DNA from: a virus
Strand: one strand, 5' to 3'
Length of the DNA stretch: 64,000 nucleotides
Virus record (IMG/VR): IMGVR_UViG_3300027763_002034
Coordinates: 1 to 64,000 of that record
Shown: positions 2,553-61,633 of the stretch, in pieces
Layout: each line of letters begins with the position of its first letter
How positions within the stretch are numbered: position 1 is the first letter of the stretch
The notes under the pieces: generated by a model
What the model was told of the DNA's origin: nothing
What the model saw: only the letters and a program-made list of their open reading frames with translations
Databases searched by the model: none
Made by a program: the position numbers and the translations under genes

Positions 2553-3380
2553 TTAGAAGCTTCTCACTGCACGTACATATAAATCAGAGTTCTTAGGTGT
2601 TGCAGTTACAAAACCATTAGTGAAATCTTGGTAATATGCTGCAGATGCAATGTGATATTCCGTAGAAGACCAATAGGCGTCATTCGCAAAACCTCCAATA
2701 GAAGCTTTGTTTGTATATAATGCATTTAACTCATCTTTACTTGGTAAATACCAATCAGAATATCCACTTTGTGTTAAATCTCCACAAATTCTAGCTGCAA
2801 TTCCTGCGGTAGCACATCCAGCCATTATATCTATTGTATTTTGATTTCCAGTTCCTATAGCGGTACCATCTGCACCCGATATCGCCGTTCCAATACATCC
2901 CCATGATGCATTACCTGAAGAAACATCTGCAACTGTAGCAACTAATCCTGATGTACCTGTAGAACCACCACCATCAATATAAGCGATTATACCACCTAAG
3001 GCTGCTTGACCTATAGTATAAGTTACTGGAGCACCTGGTAAATCACCAAGAGTTAATTCTGCACTTAAAACTGCCATATTTGCTTGACCATCAGCCCACG
3101 CCAATACATTTTCTATTGTACTACCTGTAGCACCAATTGCTAATAACATACCAATACATTGAGCATTGTTAGATGCCACATGAATACTTGGACCTTGTGA
3201 TGCTTTATCTACGTAAATGGTGTATCCACCTACTGGTGGTTTTACTCCGTTCCAAAAACCTGTTGATGAGGTTGGGCCATAATCGGCACCCTCCTTTACT
3301 CCAACGCTGAAGCCACCTCTTGTGGCTGAACTTATTCCGGATGCTCCGAATTTAAAATGATTTGTACTTGGTTGTGACAT
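2553..3380 (-). CDS. Tail adhesin with C-terminal DUF1566 (Lcl-type) domain
   Basis: A 275-residue probable receptor-binding or tail-fibre protein. Residues 1-117 form a module nearly identical to the N-terminus of the neighbour at 3398-4468. The rest, from about residue 125, has the DUF1566 signature: GLVATV, WGCIG, GTGNQNT, SDWYLPSKDEL, YWSSTEY and a final VRAVRSF. That C-type-lectin-like fold is common in phage adhesins and in variable proteins of diversity-generating retroelements. The gene is last in the minus-strand adhesin group and is followed by a strong terminator. The role is inferred from domains and position. Confidence 0.75.
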   Translation of the reverse strand: MSQPSTNHFKFGASGISSATRGGFSVGVKEGADYGPTSSTGFWNGVKPPVGGYTIYVDKASQGPSIHVASNNAQCIGMLLAIGATGSTIENVLAWADGQANMAVLSAELTLGDLPGAPVTYTIGQAALGGIIAYIDGGGSTGTSGLVATVADVSSGNASWGCIGTAISGADGTAIGTGNQNTIDIMAGCATAGIAARICGDLTQSGYSDWYLPSKDELNALYTNKASIGGFANDAYWSSTEYHIASAAYYQDFTNGFVTATPKNSDLYVRAVRSF

Positions 3381-4893: not shown

Positions 4894-7764
4894 TTATAAA
4901 CCGTATCTTGACTTGGTGTTATTATATTCGTCTGAAATATTGGAATCACTTCTCAATGTTTTATATACTCTAAATTCACCTAAATTAGCATTCATAAAGA
5001 ACGCATCATCAATAAATGACCCAATAACCCAAGGTTGGTTTGTTATAACACCAACAGATGTAATCTGTTCAGCACCTAAAAGAATACCATTATGGTAAAA
5101 ACTAATTTTTCTATTGGTCTTATCAAACTTATATGCAATATGTTGCCAAGTATTTCCTATTATTGGTTGGCTACTTGTAAAACGTGTTGAACCACCGCTT
5201 GCACCCGCATTTTCAAACAACATTTGATTAGAATAGGCGTTAATATCATTATAATTAAGTCTCCACACCATTTTAAATCCAGGGCTAGATGAATTTTGTA
5301 CAGCATTTGACATTAATGTAATGAAATAATCGTTATGTTCGTAATCACGAGGATAAATCCAAGCTGTAGTTGTCATTTCATTTCCAAAATCAAATGTGTC
5401 AAATGTAATTTTATTTCTTAAGTTTGCAAAAGTGTTTCCACTAAAATTAAATACTCCACGAGCAATTCCACTTTCAAATGTTACACCACTTATAGTACCT
5501 AACGTTCCACTAACATTTCCCAATGTACCAATATTTGTTAATGTTGTACCACCAGAGTATGACAAAGCATTTGCAGCGTCGTAAAAAATCTCTGCGGTGT
5601 TAGTATATGTACTCAATATAGTTGGAGTAGGTGTTACCGTGTTTGTTGGCGTTATAGTTGGTGTTGGTGTATTTGTAGGTGTCTCCGTAGGTGTAACCGT
5701 ATTTGTTGGTGTAGGTGTTGGAGTTTCACTTCCTGTTGGTGTTGGTGTATTGGTAGGCGTAACCGTAGGTGTTGGGGTATTAGTAGGGGTTTCAGTAACA
5801 GTAGGTGTTGGTGTATTAGTTGGAGTTTCAGTAACAGTAGGTGTTGGTGTTGGAGTTTCACTTCCTGTTGGTGTTGGTGTATTGGTAGGTGTAACCGTAG
5901 GTGTTGGCGTTGAGGTAGGAGTTTCAGTATTTGTTGGTGTAGGTGTTGGTGTTGGAGTTTGATTACCATTTAAGAAGTAACCATTTTTGGATGATATATT
6001 AAATTCAAATTTATCAACAATTTCAAATGCCTCGCAATTTTGTGTATTACTTGTTATAATTGTACCGTTAGATTTAACTAATTTTGTTTGAGTGGCACCT
6101 GTATTAATAAATGTGTAACCATCTTGAATCGGTGTTCCTCCTTTCCACATTGTTGATTTCATAATAACAGGTATAAATCCTTTTGAACCGTACCATGTTG
6201 CCGTAAACGTTAATTCTAAATCTGTTGTGGAGGGATACTGTGTTTTAAATTTATTTAAATCAAATAAAATTGCCTCAGTTCCTGTTCCTAAATTATCACC
6301 ACCATAAAGTAAAAATGGATCAATCCAATTTCCATTAGACGGTCCATTAGACGATGATGCACATGTTCCAACATAATCACCAGGTAAACCATTGGTAAAG
6401 TCATTATTCATTATTAATGGATTAGATACATAAGTCATAGTATCCATATCAGAACCATCACTAAAGAAATATTCACATAACATATAATCAAAATCAAAAT
6501 TAAATAACCCTGTTTCAAATACTGGTGCCTGTGTAGGTGATGGGGTTATAGTTGGTGTATTGGTTGGCGTTACAGTATTGGTTGGTGTGATACTAGGTGT
6601 TGGTGTTGGTGTTGGTGTTCCTGTCTGTGTAGGTGTTGGGGTCGGTGTTACCGTTTTAGTTGGAGTAATACTCGGAGTTGGTGTTGGTGTAGGACTTGGT
6701 AAAACATCTGAACAACCATATATTGAATAATTTGGTTTAATTGATGTTAAATAATGATGATTAACATGAACAAAATCCAACGGTTCTTCAAAATACTTAA
6801 CTTGTTTTAAAACACCATTAAGACCATTACTACCAAAAATTTGTACGATTTCATTTTCAGAAGACCTTAATGATGGAATTATTTCCTCAAAGTTTTCTAA
6901 TTTATATATTCTTTTACCGTTATGATAAATTTTAAGTGTTCCTAATCTTTTTTGTTTTTCGCTGGCCCATTTCTTATTTAATTCTTCAACATAACTATAT
7001 TCAGTATCACCCGTAATCCAATTTAATGAACCTGTAGTCATTGTGTATCCTGTGGTGATTTGTGTTGAATGTCCTATAAATGAACCCGAAAAGAAACTAC
7101 CAGTATCTCCAGTCGTCGGAGCCCATAATTCATCAGTATAACTAACCGCGTGCGGACCTAATATTAAATCATTAAATCCTCCCTCATTCTCAATCTCACA
7201 ATCATAAAGATATGTGTATCTATCAAATGTGATTGTAATATTAAAATCGTCATATATTCCATTCGCACACAATTCAGGAGTATTACCTGTTAATGTGTAA
7301 TATGACTCCGTGTACCCGCTATCTGGATTACACGACCCCGAATAATGGTAAGATTCCCATTTTATTTTTTTATTATTGGTAAATGAGAATGTTAAATTAT
7401 TATCCGCGTAATTCCCATTGGCTAAATCATCTTTAATTCCTAAATAGTAAAATGTCGATCCAGTTACTAATCTATCGAAAACTAAATCTAATGTCCAACC
7501 CTTCTCTGTTCTTCTACGAACAGTAAAATCACAGGTACCGCCAGTGTATGGTTTATTTACCTCTACTTCCCAAGGTGAAGTTAGTCCTGTTAAACAAGAA
7601 GAATCTATTGTTAGTCCTGTATATGTTATTTCCGTATCGAAATCTAAGACCTCTTCATTATAATCCATTTGAACTTTTGATAGTTCATAGTCATATAATT
7701 CGGAATAATCTACCTTCAAATCGAGTTTGGAACCGTAAAATCTTAAAATATTCTGATTAGCCAT
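4894..7764 (-). CDS. Large tail fibre/adhesin with Thr-Pro stalks and LamG-like tip
   Basis: A 956-residue structural protein. Residues 1-350 are a beta-rich region with many aromatic residues. Residues ~355-410 and ~600-711 are long [12 protein letters not shown] low-complexity linkers, likely extended stalks, separated by a globular domain (~415-600). Residues ~725-956 form a LamG-like jellyroll ending NTKSRYGL, like the neighbour at 3398. I place the start at 7764 (MANQNILRF) because a TATTTATA motif lies five bases upstream; an in-frame ATG at 7785 would add seven residues but overlap that motif. The portal gene also begins MANQN directly after this motif. Confidence 0.75.
5630..5965. repeat. 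Coding microsatellite-like Thr/Pro repeat, major block
   Basis: Degenerate 6-base repeats (GGTGTT/GGTGTA on the plus strand) encode TPTPT runs on the minus strand. Longer units of about 60-70 bases containing [11 protein letters not shown] recur. The repeats can produce length variation in the fibre stalk by slippage or recombination. The opposite-strand reading frame is a by-product of the repeat. Confidence 0.85.
6535..6700. repeat. Coding Thr/Pro repeat, minor block
   Basis: A second, shorter run of the same degenerate hexamer type encodes residues ~355-410 of the large adhesin. It forms another probable flexible stalk. Confidence 0.8.
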
Positions 7765-44376: not shown

Positions 44377-44618
44377 TGAGTCAATTTATTTCTTCTTATG
44401 TTAAAACAATTAACCCAAAACCAAAGATGAAATTTCACGCTAACTTACATAGAAACCAATGGTTAATATATCCATTACCTTTTGTTTATTTTTATTTTGA
44501 AACATGTCAACCCGATTCTCATGTATCAATTTGGAAAAACAAAATGTGTGGAGTATATTTGTCCTTTAATTGGTTGAAACATACCTACAACATCGGATTT
44601 CACAAAACAATAAACTAA
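44376..44618 (+). CDS. Small uncharacterised protein in the RNA-repair cassette
   Basis: An 80-residue protein rich in aromatic residues (FVYFYFETC; FNWLKHTYNIGF), possibly a small beta barrel. Its start overlaps the kinase stop (TAATG) and its stop overlaps the ligase start (TAATG), which strongly supports it as a real gene of the operon. There is no recognised domain. It may be a nucleic-acid-binding or adaptor subunit. Confidence 0.6.
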   Translation: MSQFISSYVKTINPKPKMKFHANLHRNQWLIYPLPFVYFYFETCQPDSHVSIWKNKMCGVYLSFNWLKHTYNIGFHKTIN

Positions 44619-45691
44619 TGTTAGAAATTTTAGAGAAATATTATACTGATGGTTTGTTGCATAAACAAACACATCCTACTAAAGATTTGACTATATGGAA
44701 TTATTCTCCTAAAGTTCAATATGAGCGTCTTTGGGATGAAATAACTATTATGTGCCGTGGATTGGTTACCAATTCAAAAGGTGAGATTGTTGCAAGACCA
44801 TTTAAGAAATTTTTTAACTACGAAGAACATAAACCAGAAGAAATACCTAATGAAGATTATGTGGTCTATGAAAAGATGGATGGATCGTTAGGTATTCTTT
44901 TTAATTATGAAAATGAATGGATATTATCAACACGCGGATCCTTCACATCACAACAGGCAATTAAGGGTAAAGAAATTCTTGATAAGAAATATGATGTTAG
45001 TTCATTAAGAAAAGACAACACATATTTGTTTGAAATAATTTTCAAAGAAAACCGAATAGTAGTAAATTACGGTGATGAAGAAAAGTTAGTTTTACTTGGT
45101 GCCATTCATACTGAAAGTGGAAATGAAGTTCCTGACAGTTCTTTATTCTTTATGCAAGAAGGTGGTTGGGAATTAGTAATGACATATAAAACATGGGGAG
45201 AAGGATATGATTTACTTAAAGAAGAAATACAAAAGGATAGAGAGGGATATGTAATTAAATTTAAGAATGGTTTTCGTATGAAAATCAAAGGGGAAGAGTA
45301 TAAAAGATTACATAAAATATTAACCAATTTTTCATCCAAAGATATTTGGGAATTATTGAGGGATGGAAAACCTATGGATGAATTTTTAGATAGGGTACCT
45401 GATGAATTTTACAAGTGGGTTAAACAACAAGTGAGTTCTTTTGAATATGCCAAATACAGAATTGGAGAACATTGTGGTAAGATACATGATTATTTTAGAT
45501 ACGGAAAATATGGAGATGTAGACCCTGAACCAACAAAAAAAGATTTTGCATTACATTTAGAAAAATGTGATGTTGAAACATTTTATAGACCAATATTATT
45601 TGCAATGTGGGACGGAAAACCATATGAACATATTATTTGGAGAATAATGAAACCTAAATACGAAAAACCATTTAAGAAAGATGAAAATTAA
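44618..45691 (+). CDS. rnlA: T4 Rnl1-like RNA ligase
   Basis: A 357-residue RNA ligase joining 3'-OH to 5'-phosphate ends. I start at ATG 44618 (MLEILEKYY), which directly overlaps the upstream stop. Nucleotidyl motif I is EKMDGSLGI with the adenylated Lys86; motif III is YLFEIIF, motif IV REGYVIKF and motif V RMKIKGEEY. The C-terminal ~100 residues form a separate tRNA-recognition-type domain with KIHDYFRYGKYGDVDP. In T4, Rnl1 with Pnkp repairs tRNA cut by host anticodon nucleases. Confidence 0.9.
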   Translation: MLEILEKYYTDGLLHKQTHPTKDLTIWNYSPKVQYERLWDEITIMCRGLVTNSKGEIVARPFKKFFNYEEHKPEEIPNEDYVVYEKMDGSLGILFNYENEWILSTRGSFTSQQAIKGKEILDKKYDVSSLRKDNTYLFEIIFKENRIVVNYGDEEKLVLLGAIHTESGNEVPDSSLFFMQEGGWELVMTYKTWGEGYDLLKEEIQKDREGYVIKFKNGFRMKIKGEEYKRLHKILTNFSSKDIWELLRDGKPMDEFLDRVPDEFYKWVKQQVSSFEYAKYRIGEHCGKIHDYFRYGKYGDVDPEPTKKDFALHLEKCDVETFYRPILFAMWDGKPYEHIIWRIMKPKYEKPFKKDEN

Positions 45692-49534: not shown

Positions 49535-50253
49535 TATTTCGTGAATATACCTTTTTTAATCATCCTATCCAAGATATTAGCACATGCAATATCTAAAGCT
49601 TTCTTTGTTGCAATACTAATTGTTGATTGATTGAATTTAATTGGGTCTATCGTAGCGTCTGATAAAAGGGTTAACTCTCTTTTTGTTGTTGCCTCACCTA
49701 ATCCTGACCCACCAAACAAGACTCCTGTCTCTGCATCTGTAAATCTAACTTGGAGACCTATACGAGTTACCATATTGTCTTTAATACCGTCTTTTAGGTT
49801 GATAGTTTCATCTTCTGACACCGAGTAGTCATAACACTCAATAGTTACAAAATACTTCGCCAAATTGATTTTACCACGACCATCTAATTTATTCTCTGAA
49901 ATACCTGCCTGAGATGCTTTAAATTGTAGAAGCATCCTATTTTTTATTTCCGTTTTATCTTCGGTAAATTTGAACCTGTTTAGGTTTTCAAGGTATTCCA
50001 TTGATATATTTGCAACCCCTAAACCAACTCTTTTTTCTTTCAATTCAGGATACATCTCATACATTTCATCAGAAATTCCAGCCTTTAATATTTGAATTGG
50101 AATTTGGGGACCATCGTAATCCATATACGCAGAAATATCTTTCTTTTTCTCAAAATCCGCTTTATAATCCTCTGTCTTAGTCTTACCTATTGTTTGACTA
50201 CTTGCAACAAGACTTACTAAACAAACGCTTAATAATATAAATAATTTTTTCAT
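49534..50253 (-). CDS. CsgG-like exported protein
   Basis: A 239-residue protein with a signal peptide ending at about residue 20 (LVASSQ). The rest has features of the CsgG superfamily, which forms the outer-membrane pore for curli export: RFKFTEDKTEIKNRM, YFVTIECYDYSVS, IGLQVRFTDAETGVLFGGSG and a final helix IATKKALDIACANI. Unlike classical CsgG, the leader has no lipobox. It may export phage-encoded surface proteins, or be a periplasmic CsgG-fold protein without a pore. It overlaps the FeoA-like gene by one base. Confidence 0.58.
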   Translation of the reverse strand: MKKLFILLSVCLVSLVASSQTIGKTKTEDYKADFEKKKDISAYMDYDGPQIPIQILKAGISDEMYEMYPELKEKRVGLGVANISMEYLENLNRFKFTEDKTEIKNRMLLQFKASQAGISENKLDGRGKINLAKYFVTIECYDYSVSEDETINLKDGIKDNMVTRIGLQVRFTDAETGVLFGGSGLGEATTKRELTLLSDATIDPIKFNQSTISIATKKALDIACANILDRMIKKGIFTK

Positions 50254-50262
50254 ATATTTTTT

Positions 50263-51006
50263 TTAAGGGTTCCATTTATTTAATGAACTAATATATCCAT
50301 CGGTCATGTGGTCTTTAATGTTCTTACCCGTTACCATAGATTTCAAATAATTCCAAGCACGTTCCCAATCAATCATGAACTTCTTAATATTACCCTCACT
50401 ATCGATACGTAACATCTGATTGACGTGATAGTATCCAATATATGGAGAATGTGTTACCACGTCGTTATTATGAACGATTCTTAATGACTCAATTGGTGAT
50501 TTATCAAAGTTCTGTTTGAATACTTTATTTCCAACTCTTGGACTACCGATAGTGCAACATATAATCTTATTTGATTTATAAATTGAATAAATCTCATATG
50601 CACACAAAGTAGAAACCGCAGCTCCCAAACTGTGTCCACAAACAACAATATTATCAACTTCACCTTCTCCACCTAATGTGGATAATGCTTTTTCAAATGA
50701 TTTATAAGTTTCGTCTTTAACAGCGTCCCAAGATGATTTAAAACCAATATGGACTTTCTCACCTTCTTGAATAAATGGAACTTTGTCAATTGACGCGTCG
50801 TTTTGGAAATCCTTTTTAGAAGAACTTCCTCTCCAAACGATATAGATGGATTTGTCTTTTGTTGCAACAAATCCTTGTGTGTCTGTTTTTTTATCGTCAA
50901 TCCATTTAATTAATTTTAATCTTTGTGCTTTAAAATCAATGTCTTTTTGTTCTGAATATACTTTGTCAGTTAAACCAACATTATATAGTATTTCGTTTTT
51001 TGTCAT
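50263..51006 (-). CDS. Class 3 lipase-like hydrolase
   Basis: A 247-residue alpha/beta hydrolase of the class 3 lipase family. The nucleophile elbow GHSLGAA gives Ser126. The SPRVGN motif follows at ~155, with Asp182 in NNDVVTHSP and His233 in KDHMTDGY completing the triad. The family hydrolyses acylglycerols or phospholipids. There is no signal peptide, so it would act in the cytoplasm unless released by a holin. A membrane-active lysis or host lipid-remodelling role is possible. Confidence 0.82.
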   Translation of the reverse strand: MTKNEILYNVGLTDKVYSEQKDIDFKAQRLKLIKWIDDKKTDTQGFVATKDKSIYIVWRGSSSKKDFQNDASIDKVPFIQEGEKVHIGFKSSWDAVKDETYKSFEKALSTLGGEGEVDNIVVCGHSLGAAVSTLCAYEIYSIYKSNKIICCTIGSPRVGNKVFKQNFDKSPIESLRIVHNNDVVTHSPYIGYYHVNQMLRIDSEGNIKKFMIDWERAWNYLKSMVTGKNIKDHMTDGYISSLNKWNP

Positions 51007-52076
51007 TTTGTTTTTGTTTTAGATTGATCACCCTTCTTTAAAAATATATCAAATATTGTTTTAGGACAATATTCTACAAGTAATATTAAACCCTTCCTCA
51101 ATGTGGAGTTTTTTACGACGTGATTTAAAATTTCCTTAATAACCTCTTTAATGGCGAAATTTTTAGTGTCAAAATATGTTCCATCAAAATATCTTGGACT
51201 TGTTCCCTCACCACCTGGTGAACCGTGATGAGCACCTATAGAAGTGCGCCAATAGTCAGCGTGATTTTGCCATTCAGGAATTGAAACTAATTCAGGTGAA
51301 TCAAAAAATAAGTTCCACGATAATACATTACCTTTTTGTAACATATTACCCGTACCTAAATTAAAAAGGTTTAAAAAGTATTGATTAAACTTATCTAATT
51401 TCTCATCGTTTGTTGGCACCATTCTTCCTATTTCCACATTGATATGTCCTGTACTATATGCTTCTTCCTTTATAGCAAAATCAGGATTCTTAAATCTTGG
51501 TGATAAACCCTTTCCAAGTTGGAATATAGGTTCTTTAGGATTTCCTGGTAGATGTGTTAAAACACGAATAGCATTATCTTTGTCGATAGGATATTTACGA
51601 GAACTATATTTTAATAATGGCCAAATTGCTCTTAATAGACCACCTTGATTTTCACCTGGTGTTAACCAAATTTTTCCCTCAACCATCATATCTGCCGCAA
51701 TTTCCTTTGTGTCTTCATTAACCCATCCTCTTTGTCCTGTAACAGTTACTTCCACATTGATACAAATTTCATCCCCAATCCACATCCCTTGTTGAGGACA
51801 TATTATGGAATAAATCCTACCTTCATTGGTGTATCCTATTCTAGAAATATAAGGAGCAAATTGTACATAACAACGCTTTGGGTCCTTTTCTCCATTTAGG
51901 GTATTCCAACTAAACATTGGCCATTTAACACCCCATTGTCTTTGTAGTAAATTAATGTTATCCATATTACCCAACATAGGTAATGAAGTTAAATCCGTAG
52001 TAGGATATAACATTTTCTTTTGTTTTTCAGATGGAAAGCCACCTTGCCATCCCGTAGGAATTTGTTCTTCTATCAT
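51003..52076 (-). CDS. Uncharacterised soluble protein upstream of the lipase
   Basis: A 357-residue protein with no signal peptide or membrane segment and no family I recognise. It is rich in Trp, Pro and Gly (PTGWQGGFPSEKQKK; KWPMFSWNTLNGEKDP). Its C-terminal half contains GAHHGSPGGEGTSPRYFDG and a final basic tail. Its end overlaps the lipase start by four bases (ATGA), so the two are translationally coupled and may form an enzyme-partner pair. Confidence 0.5.
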   Translation of the reverse strand: MIEEQIPTGWQGGFPSEKQKKMLYPTTDLTSLPMLGNMDNINLLQRQWGVKWPMFSWNTLNGEKDPKRCYVQFAPYISRIGYTNEGRIYSIICPQQGMWIGDEICINVEVTVTGQRGWVNEDTKEIAADMMVEGKIWLTPGENQGGLLRAIWPLLKYSSRKYPIDKDNAIRVLTHLPGNPKEPIFQLGKGLSPRFKNPDFAIKEEAYSTGHINVEIGRMVPTNDEKLDKFNQYFLNLFNLGTGNMLQKGNVLSWNLFFDSPELVSIPEWQNHADYWRTSIGAHHGSPGGEGTSPRYFDGTYFDTKNFAIKEVIKEILNHVVKNSTLRKGLILLVEYCPKTIFDIFLKKGDQSKTKTK

Positions 52077-52095
52077 ATTGTATTTTGTTTTATAT

Positions 52096-52362
52096 TTATT
52101 TTTTATTTATTAATTCTTCAACATACTTATCCCTTTGTTCTTGAAGATATTTGGTTCTCTCAAGTAATCTTGTTCTTTCGTCGTCGGTTAATTTTAAAAC
52201 TAATGTTTCCTTCTCATCTACCATTTTCTTGTATTCATTAATTTGATTACTGAAATTGACGTTTTGATAATACAATATACCTACCAATAAAATGATGGTA
52301 AATGATTGTTCTTTTAATTTAGTAAAAAATACGTCTGTCCCGTTTTGTGATTGTCCCGCCAT
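52096..52362 (-). CDS. Single-pass membrane protein with coiled-coil (spanin-like)
   Basis: An 88-residue protein with a polar N-terminus, one hydrophobic segment (SFTIILLVGILYY at ~20-32), and then a charged coiled coil running to the C-terminus (LLERTKYLQEQRDKYVEEL). The layout, N-in with a periplasmic coil, resembles an inner-membrane spanin, but no partner outer-membrane spanin is obvious. A TATTTATA motif lies 12 bases upstream, and the gene follows the terminator of the holin-like cluster. Confidence 0.48.
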   Translation of the reverse strand: MAGQSQNGTDVFFTKLKEQSFTIILLVGILYYQNVNFSNQINEYKKMVDEKETLVLKLTDDERTRLLERTKYLQEQRDKYVEELINKK

Positions 52363-52374
52363 AAAATACTTTAA

Positions 52375-52382
52375 TATAAATA
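52375..52382 (-). promoter_or_regulatory. TATTTATA late-gene motif
   Basis: Exact octamer on the minus strand, 12 bases upstream of ATG 52362. Confidence 0.58.
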
Positions 52383-52383
52383 C

Positions 52384-52411
52384 ACAAAAAAGGGAGTTTT
52401 TAACTCCCTTT
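52384..52411 (-). terminator. Terminator after the holin-like gene
   Basis: A perfect 10-bp stem AAAGGGAGTT/AACTCCCTTT with loop TTT (52389-52411). A T-rich stretch follows on the minus strand and runs toward the late motif. Confidence 0.85.
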
Positions 52412-52414
52412 CAT

Positions 52415-52663
52415 TTAACCTTCCGTTTCGTCTTTCTTTTTGTGAGAGAATTTATCCAAAGTATCAGCACCCATTCCAATTCCCGTGATTAACATTACCG
52501 CATTCACCAATTCAGGTGATGGGGCAAAATCCGCGTGAGAGAACGAATTTAACATCATTGTTATACATAGGAATAATGCACCTATCATTGCTATTACCGG
52601 TTTTACCGATATTGATCCTCTTTCGTCTTTGAAAATTTCAACTACCCATTCTTTAAAGTTCAT
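52415..52663 (-). CDS. Holin-like two-segment membrane protein
   Basis: An 82-residue protein with an amphipathic N-terminus (MNFKEWVVEIFKDERGS), two hydrophobic segments (VIAMIGALFLCITMML at ~23-38; LVNAVMLITGIGMGADTL at ~52-69) and a charged C-terminus (KKKDETEG). Length, two segments and the polar tail are typical of class II holins. It lies with other membrane proteins and a lipase, which suggests a lysis role, but no endolysin is present in the window. Confidence 0.52.
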   Translation of the reverse strand: MNFKEWVVEIFKDERGSISVKPVIAMIGALFLCITMMLNSFSHADFAPSPELVNAVMLITGIGMGADTLDKFSHKKKDETEG

Positions 52664-52688
52664 AATTATTATTTTTTGTCTTGTTTAT

Positions 52689-53261
52689 TTATCCCTCAAC
52701 GTCTTCACGTAAAAGTCCACATTTTTGACACTCCTCGTGTCCATCATGGTCAGAATCTCCCCACTCATGTACACATTGTCTGTGAGCGTGATGTTCAAAT
52801 TCCAATTTTTCCATTTCTTGTTCATGTTCTTGTTGGTCTTTTTCCAACTCAAAATTTTGTTGGTTTTCAACTACAGCCAATTCTCTCGCAGCTTGAGCTC
52901 CTTGAACAAATGCATCAGGAATAATCGGTGTAAATGGTTTGTTACTTTCCTTTATGTCATTAACACTACCCAATGATACACCATCTTCCTCATCCATTTT
53001 TTGAACTAACATTTTGTCCTTATCAGTATCACTAAACCAGTAATCTATGATTTTACCATAACTACCAATAAATGCACCTAACAATAATAAAAGTAATTCC
53101 TTCCATTCAGCCGCCATTGGGGTTTTCAATGCGATTGCTGTAAACATACCTGCAATTATCATCATAAAACCTCCCAACACCATTGCAGATATGAACCATC
53201 TGCGTTGCATCATTGAGTTTAATAATTCTTTAAATCCACTTGGCGGTTGTTGATTACTCAT
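52689..53261 (-). CDS. Membrane protein with C-terminal Cys/His (zinc-binding-like) tail
   Basis: A 190-residue protein. Two hydrophobic segments (~25-45 and ~53-70) follow a basic start, similar to holin-type proteins. Residues ~100-160 are helical and acidic (EKDQQEHEQEMEKLEFEHHAH). The C-terminus CVHEWGDSDHDGHEECQKCG has paired Cys and several His, consistent with a zinc site. The start overlaps the end of the 31-residue gene. It might be a holin with a regulatory tail or an envelope scaffold. Confidence 0.5.
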   Translation of the reverse strand: MSNQQPPSGFKELLNSMMQRRWFISAMVLGGFMMIIAGMFTAIALKTPMAAEWKELLLLLLGAFIGSYGKIIDYWFSDTDKDKMLVQKMDEEDGVSLGSVNDIKESNKPFTPIIPDAFVQGAQAARELAVVENQQNFELEKDQQEHEQEMEKLEFEHHAHRQCVHEWGDSDHDGHEECQKCGLLREDVEG

Positions 53262-53349
53262 CTTTTTTTAATTTAAAACTATATCTTATTAAAAACGTTA
53301 ATAATCCAATAAAGAATATTACCGTTCCTATTTGATAGTATATTACCAT
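53254..53349 (-). CDS. 31-residue membrane microprotein
   Basis: A very short frame. Its ATG (53349) lies inside the end of the gene at 53343-53654 and its stop overlaps the ATG of the next gene (53261). The peptide MVIYYQIGTVIFFIGLLTFL plus a basic tail (IRYSFKLKKDE) is a textbook single-pass segment. Overlaps at both ends make chance unlikely; translation by reinitiation is probable. Function is unknown; lysis-control or envelope assembly is possible. Confidence 0.5.
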   Translation of the reverse strand: MVIYYQIGTVIFFIGLLTFLIRYSFKLKKDE

Positions 53350-53654
53350 TTAGGTGCTTCTTCTTTAAACTCATCACCTTCTTTCTTCTTAGGTTTTGCA
53401 ACTGGTTGAGCTGGTTTACCGTCACCACCTTTATTGATGATTATAGTTTTACCTCCACCCGCTTGCTGAGTTTGAGTGTTTTGAATGTTGATTACAGGTG
53501 CCGCTTGTTGAACGGGAGCCTCTTTTTCGTCACCACCTGTTAATTTTGTTGTAAACCAACCACCAACACCTAATGTGATAGTGCTTACTAATCCGATAAT
53601 AATGTTCTTAATTGAACCACCGGTACTTTCTGATTTTTCTTGTTCTTCTGCCAT
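53343..53654 (-). CDS. Single-pass membrane protein with Pro/Lys-rich tail
   Basis: A 103-residue protein: acidic start (MAEEQEKSESTGGS), one transmembrane segment (NIIIGLVSTITLGVGGWF at ~17-34), then a flexible Gln/Pro/Lys-rich tail with KTIIINKGGDGKPAQPV. There is no signal-peptidase site, so it is probably anchored with the tail in the periplasm. An A-rich GACAAAAAA leader, common to several genes of this block, precedes it. Function unknown. Confidence 0.48.
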   Translation of the reverse strand: MAEEQEKSESTGGSIKNIIIGLVSTITLGVGGWFTTKLTGGDEKEAPVQQAAPVINIQNTQTQQAGGGKTIIINKGGDGKPAQPVAKPKKKEGDEFKEEAPKW

Positions 53655-53686
53655 AATTTTGTGTTTTTTGTCTTTATATAATTATC

Positions 53687-54052
53687 TTAAATTTTATTAA
53701 AGTCCGTTATTGTTAACATATTACCTGCGGCGTCATATAAAGCGATTCTATACGCTGAGGACGGTAAAGCGGATGTATACACCCTTAAAATGTTATCACC
53801 AACCTTAACTTCACTTGTTGATTTTGATACGATTCTATTAGAAATATCAAATATTTTAACGGTTACGGTTTGATTTACATCACTTTTTATGTTCATAGCA
53901 ACCTCACTTGTTACAAATGGAGTTTCTAATTTTAACCCCACTGAACTTGAGATTTTAAGGTTGTCACTAATCACCTGTGGCATTGGGGTATCGTTTTTTC
54001 TACACCCAACCAATAAGATTAGTCCAAAGAGTACGAGAGATACTTTTTTCAT
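53687..54052 (-). CDS. Lipoprotein with sorting-domain-like beta module, copy 1
   Basis: A 121-residue lipoprotein precursor with lipobox LLVGC (Cys17). The body resembles the type A sorting domain of type IX secretion substrates: TVTVKIFDISNRIVSK, a G-x-N-x-L strand (VGDNILRVYTSALPS), then YRIALYDAAGN and a final TDFNKI. Such domains target proteins to the Bacteroidota cell surface. Fusion to a lipobox is unusual, since sorting domains are normally cleaved from soluble substrates. It pairs with the neighbouring lipoprotein. Confidence 0.6.
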   Translation of the reverse strand: MKKVSLVLFGLILLVGCRKNDTPMPQVISDNLKISSSVGLKLETPFVTSEVAMNIKSDVNQTVTVKIFDISNRIVSKSTSEVKVGDNILRVYTSALPSSAYRIALYDAAGNMLTITDFNKI

Positions 54053-54064
54053 TTTTTGTCTTGT

Positions 54065-54412
54065 TTAATTTATAATTATTCTTGTTTTACCTATCTGTTG
54101 ATTATTTTGGTCTTTTAATACGACACTTAGGTTTTTTGTCGGTAAGGTATTAGTAAATATTTTAAGAGAGTTTAATCCTACTTTACCAGTAAATCTTTCC
54201 CTTGATACTACTTGGTTTTGAGCCGTATCAATCATTGTTAAAGTGTATACTCCTCCTGTAGTTAAATTAATATTAATAACATCCCCGTTTTTAACCGTGT
54301 TTTCGGACACACTAAAAAATTCTTTGTTATTGATTGACACAACGGGCGCCGAAGGTTCTATTTTTTTACACCCTACTAAAGTCAATACTAATATGAATAA
54401 TATCTTTTTCAT
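54065..54412 (-). CDS. Lipoprotein with sorting-domain-like beta module, copy 2
   Basis: A 115-residue lipoprotein precursor with lipobox TLVGC (Cys15), a probable paralogue of the gene at 53687. The body has similar strands: GVYTLTMIDTAQNQVVS, then GLNSLKIFTNTLPTKNLSVV and a closing IGKTRIIIN. It lacks the C-terminal Lys-rich end of true sorting domains. It overlaps the stop of the outer-membrane-like gene by one base (TAATG). The tandem copies suggest an outer-membrane complex. Confidence 0.55.
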   Translation of the reverse strand: MKKILFILVLTLVGCKKIEPSAPVVSINNKEFFSVSENTVKNGDVININLTTGGVYTLTMIDTAQNQVVSRERFTGKVGLNSLKIFTNTLPTKNLSVVLKDQNNQQIGKTRIIIN

Positions 54413-55305
54413 TAAAATTGAAAGTTTGTTCCTATCATAAACATTATTGGGTTACTCTTTTTATAACCAACTGACTCACTTAGTTTATCCCAAGTTTTAT
54501 TAAATCTGATATTAGTATTCAAAATAAATCTTTTAGTTATTTTCCAATCCATAGATGTACCATAATATAAGTCCAAATTGAAATCGTCTAAGTACGCTAA
54601 ATCGGATGACGTTCCATCTTTGAAATCTTTATAGATATCACTCATAGCAAATACTTGTGGTGAGATATTAACTAACTTTGTTTTGAATGTATACGTATAC
54701 ATCATCATACCTTTATAAGTTATTTGACTTGACGATGGAACCATTGGATAAATTAAATCTACAAAATTACCGTTTGCACCAACCGTATATTTTCCTTCCC
54801 ACGTACCTTCATATGACCCCCAAAATGATTTTGACGCAATTAAACTATAACCAAATGTTCCAAACTTTTTAGTTCTAAATACATCTATGAATGATAAGGT
54901 AATATCTTTTTGGAAATTAAAATCGGTTGAATAGAATGATTGTAATGTAGTAGTTCTTGTATTCGTATTTCTACTAAAACCATATCCTACTCCATAATAA
55001 TTCCATATCGGATTTATTGATGATGTGAATGAGTGACCCCATTTACCATTATTTGATGTTTTACTATATCCTAAATTTAAGGTAGTAGATACTTGCTTTC
55101 CAATTATACCTACTGAAAGGTTTGAAGATGAAAGAACATCTTTTGAAAAATCAATATACGACTCTAATATACCTAAATTATTCCAATCACCACTTTCTCC
55201 AAATAATTCTTTTGGTGATAGTTGTAATGTATCAGGTTTTACGATTTGTGCGTTTGCAACAAATCCAATTAAAACTAACGATATAATTAATAATATTTTT
55301 TTCAC
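54412..55305 (-). CDS. Outer-membrane beta-barrel-like exported protein
   Basis: A 297-residue protein with a signal peptide (MKKILLIISLVLIGFVANAQ). The mature part has alternating hydrophobic strands throughout (VSTTLNLGYSKTSNNGKWG, TFGYSLIASKSFWGSYEG, FKTKLVNISPQVFAMSD) and ends MFMIGTNFQF with a terminal aromatic residue, as typical outer-membrane barrels do. VNISPQVFAMSD is shared in spirit with TISPQVFTMFS in the 530-residue protein at 46660, so the two belong to one barrel family. Such a phage-encoded barrel could modify phage reception or export. Confidence 0.65.
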   Translation of the reverse strand: MKKILLIISLVLIGFVANAQIVKPDTLQLSPKELFGESGDWNNLGILESYIDFSKDVLSSSNLSVGIIGKQVSTTLNLGYSKTSNNGKWGHSFTSSINPIWNYYGVGYGFSRNTNTRTTTLQSFYSTDFNFQKDITLSFIDVFRTKKFGTFGYSLIASKSFWGSYEGTWEGKYTVGANGNFVDLIYPMVPSSSQITYKGMMMYTYTFKTKLVNISPQVFAMSDIYKDFKDGTSSDLAYLDDFNLDLYYGTSMDWKITKRFILNTNIRFNKTWDKLSESVGYKKSNPIMFMIGTNFQF

Positions 55306-55310
55306 TTATA

Positions 55311-55595
55311 TTATAAATTTAATAGTTTATTTTTCATCTCTTTGTAAAAAGCCGATTCAACATTCCACATCATAAGGCTATCTTTTCGTTTATTTTCACC
55401 ATTACATAACCATTCTTCACTTGCAATATCATCTATTTGGTATGCCACTTCTATAAATTCTTCTTCTTCCGTATATTGCCAATTATTAGAAGGGTTAGGA
55501 TGAATCCAACTAAAACACTTAACATTTACGATTTTATATTTTCCACCTTTAATGATAAAATTTTTCATTTCATCATATCCAAAATTAATTTCCAT
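55311..55595 (-). CDS. Small uncharacterised protein
   Basis: A 94-residue soluble protein beginning MEINFGYDEMKNF, with no signal peptide or hydrophobic segment. It contains WIHPNPSNNWQYTEEEEFIEV and a conserved-looking ASEEWLCNGENKRKDS. It lies between the adhesin-like protein gene and the barrel gene with tiny gaps, so it is in the operon. Function is not recognised; it may be a cytoplasmic chaperone for the exported proteins. Confidence 0.45.
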   Translation of the reverse strand: MEINFGYDEMKNFIIKGGKYKIVNVKCFSWIHPNPSNNWQYTEEEEFIEVAYQIDDIASEEWLCNGENKRKDSLMMWNVESAFYKEMKNKLLNL

Positions 55596-55600
55596 AATTT

Positions 55601-58198
55601 TTAATTTATTTTTATTTTTAATGTTTTTCCATCTTTATTAACTGCGTCCGTTGAACCTATTGAAATTAAACCCAATATGTTATCCAATTTTGTGTTTGAC
55701 GAAAATGAAATCTTATATGTTGTTGTCTTATCTAAACTTGTACTACCATCACTCACCAAAGAACCTAAATTAATGTAATTACCCTTGTTGGTTGCATAGT
55801 TGGTAGGTGAACCTTTTGTGGTAAATTGTATTCCTTTAAAATTTAAGACCGAATTATCATAGTTTAATTGAAATTGAGTTCCTACCACGTTTTGTTGTAA
55901 TGGGTCAAATGTGATGTAAGCATAAACACTATCACCAATTACTTCTGTTATTATAGATGCGTTAATATCGGTTGATATGGAGGTACTCATTGATGTTCTA
56001 ACCGACATTGTCGTAATATTATTTGATGGTGGTGTTGCTGAATGTGATAAGTTTACATCACCTTTCCAACTAACCGCTAAATCATAGTTATAACTTATTA
56101 CATCATCTAATAAACTGAATGAGTATGTTTTTCCTTTATATGATGTGAATGAACTCCACGTTGACTTACCTATTAAATTATAGATTGAGTCCGGTATTAC
56201 TTTTATTGTATTGTCTAATGTGTAACTACTAACTAAGTTTTGAGTACCTGTTAGATTTTGTAATAATTTGAAACAATCTGCTTCGTTAAAATATCCATCA
56301 TCATTTACATCTGCATTTATATACTGAATACCATATGTAAATTCATTTCCACTTTGATTTCCAAATATACCACCATTTGCCAATTCCTTAAATGCCAAAT
56401 AAACATCCGATACCGTTACAACACTATTATATAAAGTTCTCAATTGAACACTATCATATTCATTCAATTCCATTCTATGTTGTTTGTATGTACCTAATTG
56501 TGTAAATCCAAATTCCGCTTTTACCCCATAAAATCCATTTGCACTTCTTAAACTTGATGTATATGATGAACCCGTATAATTAAATTGCGTCGGTGTATAA
56601 ACATAATATTCAGCCCAACCATTTGGGTCATATGAATTAAATGTTACTGCACCATTCCATAAATCAAATAATTTTAATTTAGTTACATTACTCGGTGTTA
56701 TATTTGTTCCTATAAATTCTCTTGCATCAACACCAATTCTATATCTACCATTTGATGCATCATAATCATAAATTACACACCATTCAACTTGACCAGGAGA
56801 TGTAGTTGCTTTATATGACATTGGTGCCGATACAAATTGATAACTTAAATCCCAACCACCCCAATCAGATGTTGTTATACCATTACGGGTTGATGCGGTA
56901 TAATTATTTTTTCCTTCAACTACTTTAATATAAATTTCTTTTGTTTGTCCAATTGTTAAAACTCCAGCATGTACAGCCATGGCAGGAATATAAGAGTCGT
57001 TTGTGTAAATATCAGTTCCCCATCCACCACCACTTGCACCGGTTACGGTCATTTTATATATTTTACCGATATCTGCAGTAGTGAATTGTGTCATATCACT
57101 TACTCCATTTAAAGGTATTGCAACTGACGTGAATATTTGTGCAGTATCTATTTGGTTTGAAAGATATACTTTACCCAAACCACTTAATGATTTATATCCA
57201 TCTGCTGCAGTCCAATTAGATGTGTTATCGTTTCTTTTGAATATTTGAGCGGTGAATTTAGTTTTATCAATTGAACTATTAAACTTAAATCCAAATAGTG
57301 CTTTTATAGTTTGTCCGTTTGAGTGAGCAACACTATTAGTATAAAATTCAGTAAATGTTGCATCATCAGGATTACTCCAAGTCCCATATTCAATTACATA
57401 AGCACAACTAAAGTTATTTGGTAAATCATTCCATTGAGTGCCACCACCCCATTTAGTTACTGCGTAATCTTCGTTACCACTATTGTTTGGTTCACCACCT
57501 GCCCAGTTATTATATTGACCTGGAATGTTTCCGTTTGTTTGTCCATTGTTAATTTTAATCAGAGTTCCTTTTTCAGGTCCAGCATCTATTGTCCATCTAG
57601 CTTCACTTACTTCATCGGTTAATGCAAACCAAATATTTGATTGAGGTACATTATTATAAATAAATGCATCTTCATCTGCAGAAGTAATTGTTACCAAATA
57701 TCCTGTCTGTCCTTTGAATGTTGTTTGCAATGCTGCGGCTCTTGCTACTGTGTAATATGCTCCAGTTGATACGGGTTTGTAAAAGTGTCCGTTTACACCA
57801 TTAAAATAATATCCCGTTGGGTTTACAGTTGCAGCCACTGAAATATTAATATCTCCCGTTATTGTTCCTGTGTTTATCTTTAATGTTGCTAATGCTGTAT
57901 TGATACTAGCCATTGTTCCAGTTACCACCAAACGAGTTTTATTACCACTTAAAGTAAATCCACTTGCAGCAGTTAAACCTGTTGTTGTTCCTAAAGAAAA
58001 TGTTGTACCGGATGGAGGATTAACTAAACTGATTGAAGTTAGTAAAGTTGCTGTTGTACTAAATCCAGTTAATTCAAATCCACTAGCGTCTTGTCCTGTG
58101 GTATTCACAGTAAATGATTTAGGGTCTGGTGCCGTTACTGACTGACCAAACCCTAAAAATGATATAAATAAAAATAATACTATTAATAGTTTCTTCAT
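55601..58198 (-). CDS. Exported C-type-lectin / dockerin-like / cohesin-like protein
   Basis: An 865-residue secreted adhesin with a signal peptide ending FGQ. Residues ~146-271 form a C-type lectin domain (LVTITSADEDAFIYNN, WNDLPNNFSCAYVIEYG). A large beta region follows. Residues ~620-640 hold a dockerin-like calcium repeat (ADVNDDGYFNEADCFKLL). Residues ~755-865 look like a cohesin domain (FQLNYDNSVLNFKGIQF). Its C-terminal layout matches the neighbour at 58202. It likely binds glycans at the cell surface and may dock to other cohesin/dockerin partners. Confidence 0.66.
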   Translation of the reverse strand: MKKLLIVLFLFISFLGFGQSVTAPDPKSFTVNTTGQDASGFELTGFSTTATLLTSISLVNPPSGTTFSLGTTTGLTAASGFTLSGNKTRLVVTGTMASINTALATLKINTGTITGDINISVAATVNPTGYYFNGVNGHFYKPVSTGAYYTVARAAALQTTFKGQTGYLVTITSADEDAFIYNNVPQSNIWFALTDEVSEARWTIDAGPEKGTLIKINNGQTNGNIPGQYNNWAGGEPNNSGNEDYAVTKWGGGTQWNDLPNNFSCAYVIEYGTWSNPDDATFTEFYTNSVAHSNGQTIKALFGFKFNSSIDKTKFTAQIFKRNDNTSNWTAADGYKSLSGLGKVYLSNQIDTAQIFTSVAIPLNGVSDMTQFTTADIGKIYKMTVTGASGGGWGTDIYTNDSYIPAMAVHAGVLTIGQTKEIYIKVVEGKNNYTASTRNGITTSDWGGWDLSYQFVSAPMSYKATTSPGQVEWCVIYDYDASNGRYRIGVDAREFIGTNITPSNVTKLKLFDLWNGAVTFNSYDPNGWAEYYVYTPTQFNYTGSSYTSSLRSANGFYGVKAEFGFTQLGTYKQHRMELNEYDSVQLRTLYNSVVTVSDVYLAFKELANGGIFGNQSGNEFTYGIQYINADVNDDGYFNEADCFKLLQNLTGTQNLVSSYTLDNTIKVIPDSIYNLIGKSTWSSFTSYKGKTYSFSLLDDVISYNYDLAVSWKGDVNLSHSATPPSNNITTMSVRTSMSTSISTDINASIITEVIGDSVYAYITFDPLQQNVVGTQFQLNYDNSVLNFKGIQFTTKGSPTNYATNKGNYINLGSLVSDGSTSLDKTTTYKISFSSNTKLDNILGLISIGSTDAVNKDGKTLKIKIN

Positions 58199-60681: not shown

Positions 60682-60754
60682 GCCTTCTTAGCTCAGCAGG
60701 TAGAGCGCGAAATTTGTAATTTCGATGTCATTGGTTCGATTCCGATAGAAGGCT
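60682..60754 (+). tRNA. tRNA-Thr (UGU)
   Basis: A full cloverleaf of 73 nt: 7-bp acceptor GCCTTCT/AGAAGGC, D arm GCTC/GAGC, anticodon stem CGAAA/TTTCG with loop TTTGTAA (anticodon TGT), and T arm with loop TTCGATT. Discriminator T; no CCA is encoded. It reads ACA codons, frequent in this A+T-rich genome. Confidence 0.9.
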
Positions 60755-61024
60755 CAACAGGTGACGACGGTGGTGTAACCCCACTGTCTATGAATCCCAA
60801 AAGATCCGTCTGACTCGCGAGGTAGGGCGGTGAGGGTAGAGTTACTATAAGTCGGGAGTAATTAACCCAATACGAAAATGTAACCGCAGATTATGTCTGT
60901 TATGATGTACATAGATGGTACAAAAAACCTGTAACTTTTTGAAACTAACTCAACGAGGACTTTGTCAACCAGAGCAGTGACTCGGATGGTGCAACTTAAG
61001 GTGAGTTAGAATCAAATTTTTTTT
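60755..61024 (+). ncRNA. Structured RNA A between tRNA-Thr and tRNA-Asn
   Basis: No reading frame, but many stems: GACGGTGG/CCACTGTC (60766-60773 with 60781-60788), CAGA/TCTG, TGTAC/GTACA, and a closing CTAACTCA/TGAGTTAG (60945-60952 with 61002-61009) followed by a T8 tract. Hairpin TTACT/AGTAA (60842-60861) has a GGG-containing loop that can pair with CCC at 60866-60868. The same pseudoknot with shared strings TACTATAAG and TAACCCAAT recurs in RNA B. Confidence 0.65.
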
Positions 61025-61035
61025 GGCTATTAAAA

Positions 61036-61120
61036 TGACACGTTGCCATAGAGGCCGAATGGTCCAGACTGTTAATCTGGTGAGTAAAATCCACCGTAGG
61101 TTCGACTCCTACCGTGTCAG
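61036..61120 (+). tRNA. tRNA-Asn (GUU) with long variable region
   Basis: An 85-nt cloverleaf: acceptor TGACACG/CGTGTCA, D stem GCC/GGT, anticodon stem CCAGA/TCTGG with loop CTGTTAA (anticodon GTT), T arm GTAGG/CCTAC with loop TTCGACT. The variable region is 15 nt (61081-61095), the class II length of Leu/Ser/Tyr tRNAs, whereas tRNA-Asn is normally class I. U1-A72 and discriminator G73 are Asn-like. Confidence 0.78.
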
Positions 61121-61129
61121 CAAACAATA

Positions 61130-61202
61130 GGACTTGTAGCTCAGCTGGTAGAGCAAGACACTCATAATGTCGAGGTCGGGGGATCATACCCCTCCGGGTC
61201 CA
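61130..61202 (+). tRNA. tRNA with CAU anticodon (Met or Ile2)
   Basis: A 73-nt cloverleaf: acceptor GGACTTG/CGGGTCC, D arm GCTC/GAGC, anticodon loop CTCATAA (anticodon CAT) on a stem with one A-G mismatch, and T stem GGGGG/CCCTC with loop ATCATAC, which lacks the usual TTC start. Elongator Met or lysidine-modified Ile cannot be separated by sequence alone. Confidence 0.78.
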
Positions 61203-61204
61203 CA

Positions 61205-61554
61205 CGGTTCGGTTGGTCACCGAATAGTATGTCCAATATGAAGAGAAATGGTTTGACGACCATATGGAACTGATGATAGGACAAGGTTCTATTTAGATTG
61301 ACCGTCTACTATAAGGGGTAAATATAGTAACCCAATGGTCTATTCCTAACCTGAAAGGGGACAGCTAAGACACCTGTGAGTTGGATAAATAAAGGTGTCA
61401 ACGGAAGAGTACTTCAGGCGGCCCTGAATCCAGTCTTGAAAACTGTGAGTACTGCAAGGTATGGCGATCGACACGTCACTCTTCCGCACGGGTCTTAGCC
61501 CAAGGAGAAATCTAGAATACTAAGTGGCACCTCGGAAAGACGAGGATTTTTTTT
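61205..61554 (+). ncRNA. Structured RNA B between tRNA-Met/Ile2 and tRNA-Glu
   Basis: About 350 nt without a reading frame. Stems: TGTCC/GGACA, ATGGT/ACCAT (61248-61263), TACTATA/TATAGTA (61307-61329), GACACCT/AGGTGTC (61369-61399), CAGG/CCTG and the 9-bp CGGAAGAGT/ACTCTTCCG (61402-61410 with 61478-61486). The terminator is CCTCG/CGAGG (61530-61545) with T8. The hairpin loop GGGG at 61315-61318 can pair with CCC at 61331-61333, as in RNA A. It does not match RNase P RNA, tmRNA or 6S RNA signatures that I know. Confidence 0.68.
61530..61554 (+). terminator. Terminator of structured RNA B
   Basis: Stem CCTCG/CGAGG with loop GAAAGA, then A and eight T residues. The tRNA-Glu begins at the very next base. 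Confidence 0.85.
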
Positions 61555-61626
61555 GATCCTATCGACTAAGGGTTAGGTCACCACCCTTTCACGGTGGTAA
61601 TACGGGTTCGAATCCCGTTGGGAGTA
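61555..61626 (+). tRNA. tRNA-Glu (UUC)
   Basis: A 72-nt cloverleaf: anticodon stem CCACC/GGTGG with loop CTTTCAC (anticodon TTC), T arm ACGGG/CCCGT with loop TTCGAAT, short D stem GAC/GTC. The acceptor GATCCTA/TGGGAGT has one A-G mismatch and a G-T first pair, so it is weak. It sits directly after a terminator, so it needs read-through or processing. Discriminator A. Confidence 0.7.
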
Positions 61627-61633
61627 CAAATTT

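Follow-up and report, generated by a model that had tools for sequence, protein, structure and literature searches.

Which amino acid is carried by a tRNA whose anticodon is that of asparagine and whose variable region has the length found in another class of tRNAs? In bacteria, a long variable arm is taught as the mark of the Ser, Leu and Tyr (and Sec) tRNAs, and the gene considered here joins such an arm to the anticodon GUU. It lies within a window of 64,000 nt (i.e. the whole stretch of DNA that was analysed), with which an IMG/VR virus record of 71.5 kb begins. By its major capsid Gp23, portal Gp20 and T4-type terminase the phage is T4-like, and its host may belong to Bacteroidota, as suggested by the nearest named relative of the long-armed tRNA-Asn, which is found in Cellulophaga phage phi4:1. 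A sequence-only reading of the locus had suggested that the gene may be a re-engineered tRNA of Tyr or Ser type, the charging of which might differ from that of the host tRNA-Asn.

The tRNA cluster and the anatomy of its long-armed member

Close to the end of the window, ARAGORN called four tRNA genes on the plus strand: Thr(UGU) (60682-60755), Asn(GUU) (61036-61121), Met(CAU) (61130-61203) and Glu(UUC) (61555-61627). The Thr, Met and Glu genes are ordinary neighbours (ARAGORN, Rfam), and all four genes encode C74 (at 60755, 61121, 61203 and 61627) and leave C75 and A76 unencoded. A fifth, Ser(UGA)-like tRNA (61403-61486, plus strand), not called by ARAGORN, was recognised with the Rfam tRNA-Sec model (37.1 bits, which is below its cut-off of 47) and by its fold; it shows an 8-bp acceptor, a 4-bp T stem, a 6-bp D stem, a 4-nt D loop and a variable hairpin. 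The spacers 60756-61032 and 61204-61553, each taken whole, did not fold better than shuffles (z -0.75 and -1.04, respectively), and no DNA relatives of window positions 50000-57000 were found in the phage collection.

Within the tRNA-Asn gene, nucleotides U1 to G73 occupy 61036-61120 and position 61121 is the encoded C74, the complete CCA being absent. The 7/5 acceptor branch (acceptor UGACACG/CGUGUCA, T arm GUAGG-UUCGACU-CCUAC, read by hand) begins with U1-A72 and carries G73 at 61120. The acceptor is connected to the D stem by the linker UUG (61043-61045), which has 3 nt instead of 2 and is common to the family of 43 aligned genes described below. It is followed by the class II-like D arm CCAU-AGAGGCCGA-AUGG (61046-61062; assigned by D-stem covariation and a nearest-neighbour test without the variable region), by the anticodon arm CCAGA-CUGUUAA-UCUGG with anticodon GUU (61064-61080; sequence, ARAGORN) and by the 15-nt variable region UGAGUAAAAUCCACC (61081-61095; sequence, family covariation), in which U44 precedes the hairpin GA-GUAAAA-UC and the hairpin is succeeded by CACC. 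Two pairs of the variable stem are sure (G-C and A-U), while the third position is G.A, a pair lost in the window copy.

The gene was matched by Rfam RF00005 with 43.3 bits (cut-off 29; E 7e-6 for the whole window) over model positions 1-71 of 71, the alignment placing an 11-nt insertion in the variable region. The 15-nt variable region, U1-A72, G73 and GUU described from the letters alone are thereby confirmed (sequence, ARAGORN and Rfam). An alternative fold with a 5-nt variable loop, the outcome named beforehand as contrary to that description, was found neither by ARAGORN nor by Rfam (both set the T arm 15 nt past the anticodon stem), and the 43 related genes keep the same helices. In a single-sequence energy fold (z -1.93; 9 of 200 shuffles equally good) the acceptor, T arm and variable hairpin form, but the standard D and anticodon arms do not.

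Set beside class I tRNA-Asn(GUU), e.g. that of Bacteroidota, the gene has the same anticodon, anticodon loop (CUGUUAA), U1-A72 and G73, and differs in its variable region (15 nt with a hairpin, as compared to 5 nt there and to 4-5 nt in class I generally), its class II-like D arm and its 3-nt linker. Bacterial tRNA-Tyr(GUA) has in common with it the long variable arm and a similar anticodon arm, and represents the best cellular match to the family model; it differs by the anticodon GUA, by A73 and G1-C72 (which the window gene lacks) and by an unpaired stretch behind the variable stem that mostly has 3 nt where the window gene has 4. G73 agrees with tRNA-Ser as well, but the four unpaired nt that follow the variable stem depart from the 0-1 expected of that isotype. 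Unusual cloverleaves from bacteria and phages include the 8/4 and 9/3 tRNAs and the allo-tRNAs; their 8/4 and 9/3 acceptor branches contrast with the 7/5 branch of the window tRNA-Asn; an 8/4 branch is present in the neighbouring tRNA at 61403-61486.

A family of long-armed tRNA-Asn genes in phages

A blastn search against named phages showed that Cellulophaga phage phi4:1 and an uncultured phage of 636 kb have a tRNA of this plan, and also gave equal-length alignments through the variable region with the tRNA-Asn of phiKZ and PA1C. The phi4:1 copy is annotated as tRNA-Pseudo, and the phiKZ gene stands in databases as tRNA-Asn. As defined here, the family is characterized by the UUG linker, a UAG..CGA D loop, the anticodon GUU and a variable hairpin with four unpaired nt behind it, all of which are present in the window gene. 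When viral contigs were searched with a pattern of linker, D loop and anticodon arm in which any anticodon was allowed, 59 loci matched. The anticodons at 64 sites (all collected viral loci and the window) were GTT in 59 cases, CAC in 3, TTA in 1 and TCC in 1, and on 49 distinct stretches ARAGORN called 45 tRNA-Asn and 1 tRNA-Gly (i.e. 45 of the 46 called tRNAs were Asn). The search for the same tRNA in related phages, as had been proposed for this locus, was thus rewarded with 43 distinct family genes, and the long-armed tRNA-Asn is not peculiar to the window phage.

These 43 Asn genes were aligned by MAFFT, and a cloverleaf with a 3-bp variable stem was tested on the alignment: 97.9% of cells were paired, as compared to 76.2% in shuffles and 33-51% when the structure was slid. 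Both-sided changes were observed in 20 of 24 pairs, among them all three variable-stem pairs and pairs of the D stem. In view of this pairing and of the both-sided changes in 43 genes, we regard the variable hairpin as a kept structure and not as noise; the four unpaired nt after it occur in 43 of 43 rows. An alternative fifth D-arm pair in place of the 3-nt linker (alignment columns 10 and 30) is G-U in 42 of 43 rows, broken in the remaining one and free of both-sided changes, so that it is neither supported nor excluded by covariation.

The family covariance model gave 96.9 bits to the window gene (itself one of the 43 training rows), 89.8-101.7 bits to five of its own members, 76.8-83.4 bits to four long-armed phage tRNA-Lys (XacN1, L095, L108, L401) and 73.6-75.2 bits to the tRNA-Asn(GUU) of phiKZ and PA1C, which were not among the training rows. 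The latter two agree with the window gene in the 15-nt length of the variable region, the four unpaired nt that precede the T stem, U1-A72 and G73, but are separated from the family by a 2-nt linker, another D arm, the lower score (at least 89.8 bits for the family) and a tree cluster of their own. The four long-armed tRNA-Lys share with the family the 3-nt linker, the D arm and the setting of the variable arm, and differ by their anticodons (CUU or UUU) and a Lys-type G1-C72; three of these genes lie at 2000-2088 of Xanthomonas phage XacN1 (L008), 9961-10049 of L095 and 4778-4865 of L108. By ARAGORN, the 3-nt linker is present in 13 of 100 long-armed Asn and in 4 of 17 long-armed Lys tRNAs.

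Spread of long arms

A variable region was considered long when it spanned at least 9 nt by ARAGORN brackets, a threshold set in this analysis; some of the long calls look odd and are possibly wrong (Ile(UAU) and Met above all), and one counted long-armed Asn (L476) has an atypical anticodon loop. A tRNA-Asn motif with a long gap ahead of the T loop produced at least 120 rows in viral contigs, and 88 of those listed carry a long-armed tRNA-Asn (ARAGORN). In cellular genomes it produced at least 116 rows, and among those listed a plausible class II Asn is present in 5 loci (L152, L191, L196, L216 and L220), most of them within arrays or clusters of tRNA genes. The L196 locus (Aestuariivirga sp. 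YIM B02566 contig, 2989-3072 and 6894-7080), a tRNA cluster on a chromosome, contains one Asn and two Lys tRNAs with long arms and is possibly an integrated element. Two further cellular calls, in Gillisia (L147), were rejected, as they look like tRNA-Asn pseudogene repeats. In Gillisia (L147/L635, genome G007) tRNA-Asn-like copies adjoin a true tRNA-Asn and have the palindrome CCCCGATAGCTATCGGGG in place of the variable loop and T stem; single motif matches of the same copy type occur in genomes G001 and G009, and such copies look like tRNA-derived repeats.

A motif scan admitting both lengths in one IMG/VR sample found, among the matches listed, about 10 long-armed versus about 94 short-armed tRNA-Asn; within that sample and those matches, roughly one tenth of the motif-matched phage tRNA-Asn are long-armed. 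With 120 rows listed, 104 loci gave 93 class I Asn, 12 sites without a tRNA and no class II, and the other 16 loci (L018-L033, inferred from the scan order, 10 of them directly listed) included 10 with a long-armed Asn. Other isotypes are affected too: among the matches listed, long arms were found in 8 of 93 called tRNA-Lys(UUU) and 2 of 96 called tRNA-Asp (no tRNA being called at 22 sites of the Lys and 13 of the Asp scan), and for isotypes other than Asn, Ser, Leu and Tyr at loci L254-L577 the variable region was long in 61 of 1679 calls. In the family's own phages (L578-L630, e.g. L600, L593 and L619), long arms were also called on Cys, Met, Thr, Ile, Trp, Glu, Asp and Val tRNAs.

Origin of the class II body

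When the variable region was left out of the comparison, a class II tRNA was the nearest match of the D arm for 81% of the 43 family genes and for 6% of 60 class I tRNA-Asn; over the D, anticodon and T arms the respective values are 93% and 3%. The likeness of the D arm to type II tRNAs, remarked upon from the single sequence, is therefore upheld by the family. By its D arm the family comes closest to LysII and SerII, by its anticodon and T arms to TyrII; among phage tRNAs the long-armed tRNA-Lys are nearest, with Ser and Tyr mixed in. A cellular source was not found in 198 Bacteroidota genomes (stricter filters), where the best match reached 69.1 bits and fell below every family member scored; 20 Bacteroidota loci extracted from the family-model search comprised 19 tRNA-Tyr and 1 tRNA-Ser. 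On the strength of the D-arm nearest-neighbour test, the family-model scores and the standing of Tyr and Ser as best Bacteroidota matches, a class II ancestor of the window family appears well supported. Neither Tyr nor Ser stands out as the donor, since the nearest phage tRNA is a long-armed Lys with Ser and Tyr intermingled; the proposed re-engineering of a Tyr- or Ser-type tRNA thus holds as regards class II descent and not as regards a specific donor.

We consider it rather improbable that the gene is a class I tRNA-Asn that merely gained an insertion in its variable loop. Such an origin agrees with the intact Asn identity elements, and for the 91 long-armed Asn outside the family class II is the closest match of no more than 49% of the D arms, while class I Asn leads the nearest groups (17.5 of 91) when the D, anticodon and T arms are compared together; the window family, however, argues against it by its class II shares of 81% and 93%, where the class I controls have 6% and 3%. 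For some of the long-armed Asn outside the family, on the other hand, a class I origin with an insertion may apply.

In a phylogenetic tree (84 columns and 177 rows, bootstrap not settled; Tyr, Ser, Leu, class I Asn and the other long-armed Asn groups sampled), which is poorly resolved, the family is situated on one side together with most long-armed Lys and apart from the phiKZ-type Asn, and at least 5 changes among the other long-armed Asn are needed to satisfy its starred branches. Given this placement and the forced changes, long-armed tRNA-Asn likely arose several times.

Amino-acid identity and charging

As far as the account in PMC9976931 goes, bacterial Asn identity consists of GUU and G73 and can be transferred with these into another tRNA, Tyr needs A73 and G1-C72, G73 repels TyrRS and LeuRS, and Ser relies on the variable arm. 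We observed U1-A72 in 78 and G73 in 92 of 100 distinct long-armed phage tRNA-Asn; in 181 class I phage tRNA-Asn the counts are 132 and 160, respectively. Phage tRNA-Tyr have G1-C72 in 93 and A73 in 105 of 109 cases, tRNA-Leu A73 in 166 of 167, and tRNA-Ser G73 in 136 and G1-C72 in 151 of 174. The nucleotides left unpaired past the variable stem number 3-4 in 72 of 100 long-armed Asn, as compared to 0-1 in 153 of 172 Ser. Furthermore, Bacteroidota class I tRNA-Asn display U1-A72 and G73 in 6 of 9 genomes (none was read from the other 3), Asn is represented by the long-armed gene alone among the 22 phi4:1 tRNAs covered (19 isotypes), and Asn codons make up 6.6% (336 AAC and 786 AAU of 16,976) in 49 of 61 ORFs of the window.

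Plain asparagine decoding is favoured by these identity nucleotides, the setting of the arm, the likeness to Bacteroidota tRNA-Asn, the phi4:1 set and the Asn codon usage, and we think it quite probable that the gene encodes a functional tRNA-Asn(GUU) with the body of a class II tRNA, charged by the host AsnRS and decoding Asn codons. The covarying helices and the 45 Asn among 46 called tRNAs, obtained with no anticodon prescribed, agree with this reading. Its starting point would have been a class II gene within the tRNA array of a phage, to which the features read by AsnRS were added (the anticodon of Asn, G73 and, in this gene, U1-A72); the long variable arm and the class II D arm would have stayed because AsnRS needs no short variable region; and the host enzyme would load asparagine, AAC and AAU being decoded during infection. 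Some observations point the other way. While 44 of 66 loci with at least 12 tRNAs and a long-armed Asn are devoid of a class I Asn in the stretch covered, 22 of 66 also have one, and the single-sequence fold is without a full cloverleaf. Moreover, G1-C72 is present in 26 of 43 family members (12 of these with G73, 14 with U73, e.g. L009, L082, L089 and L586), and the 14 that combine it with U73 are at odds with the E. coli AsnRS rules and speak against Asn charging.

For the window gene itself, the suggestion that its charging differs from that of host tRNA-Asn found no support (Asn anticodon, G73 and U1-A72 present, A73 and G1-C72 absent, variable arm not set as in Ser), and altered charging appears unlikely. 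Recognition by SerRS of the long arm and G73, both of which are present, would place serine at Asn codons and turn the gene into a missense or regulatory tRNA; we give this little credence, as 1-72 is U-A instead of G-C and the four unpaired nt after the variable stem (43 of 43 family rows) contrast with the 0-1 of 153 of 172 phage Ser. Less credible still is that the gene has remained a tRNA-Tyr and inserts tyrosine at Asn codons: G34, U35 and the long arm are retained and the nearest cellular tRNA is tRNA-Tyr (19 of 20 loci), but A73 (present in 105 of 109 phage Tyr tRNAs) and G1-C72 are missing, and G73 acts as a TyrRS antideterminant by the account cited (PMC9976931). A decaying pseudogene, in keeping with the tRNA-Pseudo annotation of the phi4:1 copy, with the lowest Rfam score among the four window tRNAs and with the lost third variable-stem pair, seems very unlikely in the face of acceptor, D, anticodon and T pairs that are all intact, of compensatory changes in 20 of 24 family pairs (97.9% of cells paired) and of an anticodon kept at 59 of 64 sites.

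Why the long arm stays

A separate possibility, compatible with the preferred reading of a working, asparagine-charged tRNA and concerned only with why the arm stays, is that the molecule functions as tRNA-Asn and that the long arm shields it from host tRNA-cutting defences; we put it forward tentatively. It is in line with the recurrence of long arms on several isotypes in phages and with the presence in the window phage of an RNA ligase of PHROG 562 (44570-45691, plus strand), a kind of ligase that in T4 repairs tRNA-Lys cut by a host nuclease, according to the T4 account in PMC10264068. On the other hand, the anticodon loop CUGUUAA is identical to that of the host tRNA-Asn, and the same facts are fitted by the remaining reading, in which AsnRS and LysRS simply tolerate the arm and phage arrays recycle class II genes. 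It is likewise conceivable, though we would not presume it, that phages have repeatedly made class I isotypes long-armed (Asn and Lys above all, but also Cys, Thr, Met, Ile, Trp and Glu), the arm being selected as a poor substrate for such defences in tRNAs still charged by AsnRS and LysRS.

Implications for phage tRNA biology

No description of a long-armed phage tRNA-Asn was found in the literature (titles and opening abstracts, open-licence PMC), which is weak evidence of absence. The phi4:1 copy, labelled a pseudogene, illustrates that annotation can miss such genes. Taken together, the recurrence of long-armed tRNA-Asn in phages suggests that the divide between class I and class II has been crossed in nature with the amino-acid identity kept, and long-armed phage tRNAs offer natural substrates for probing the tolerance of AsnRS and LysRS. 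If selection by tRNA-cutting defences proved true, the long arm would represent a resistance trait situated outside the anticodon loop.
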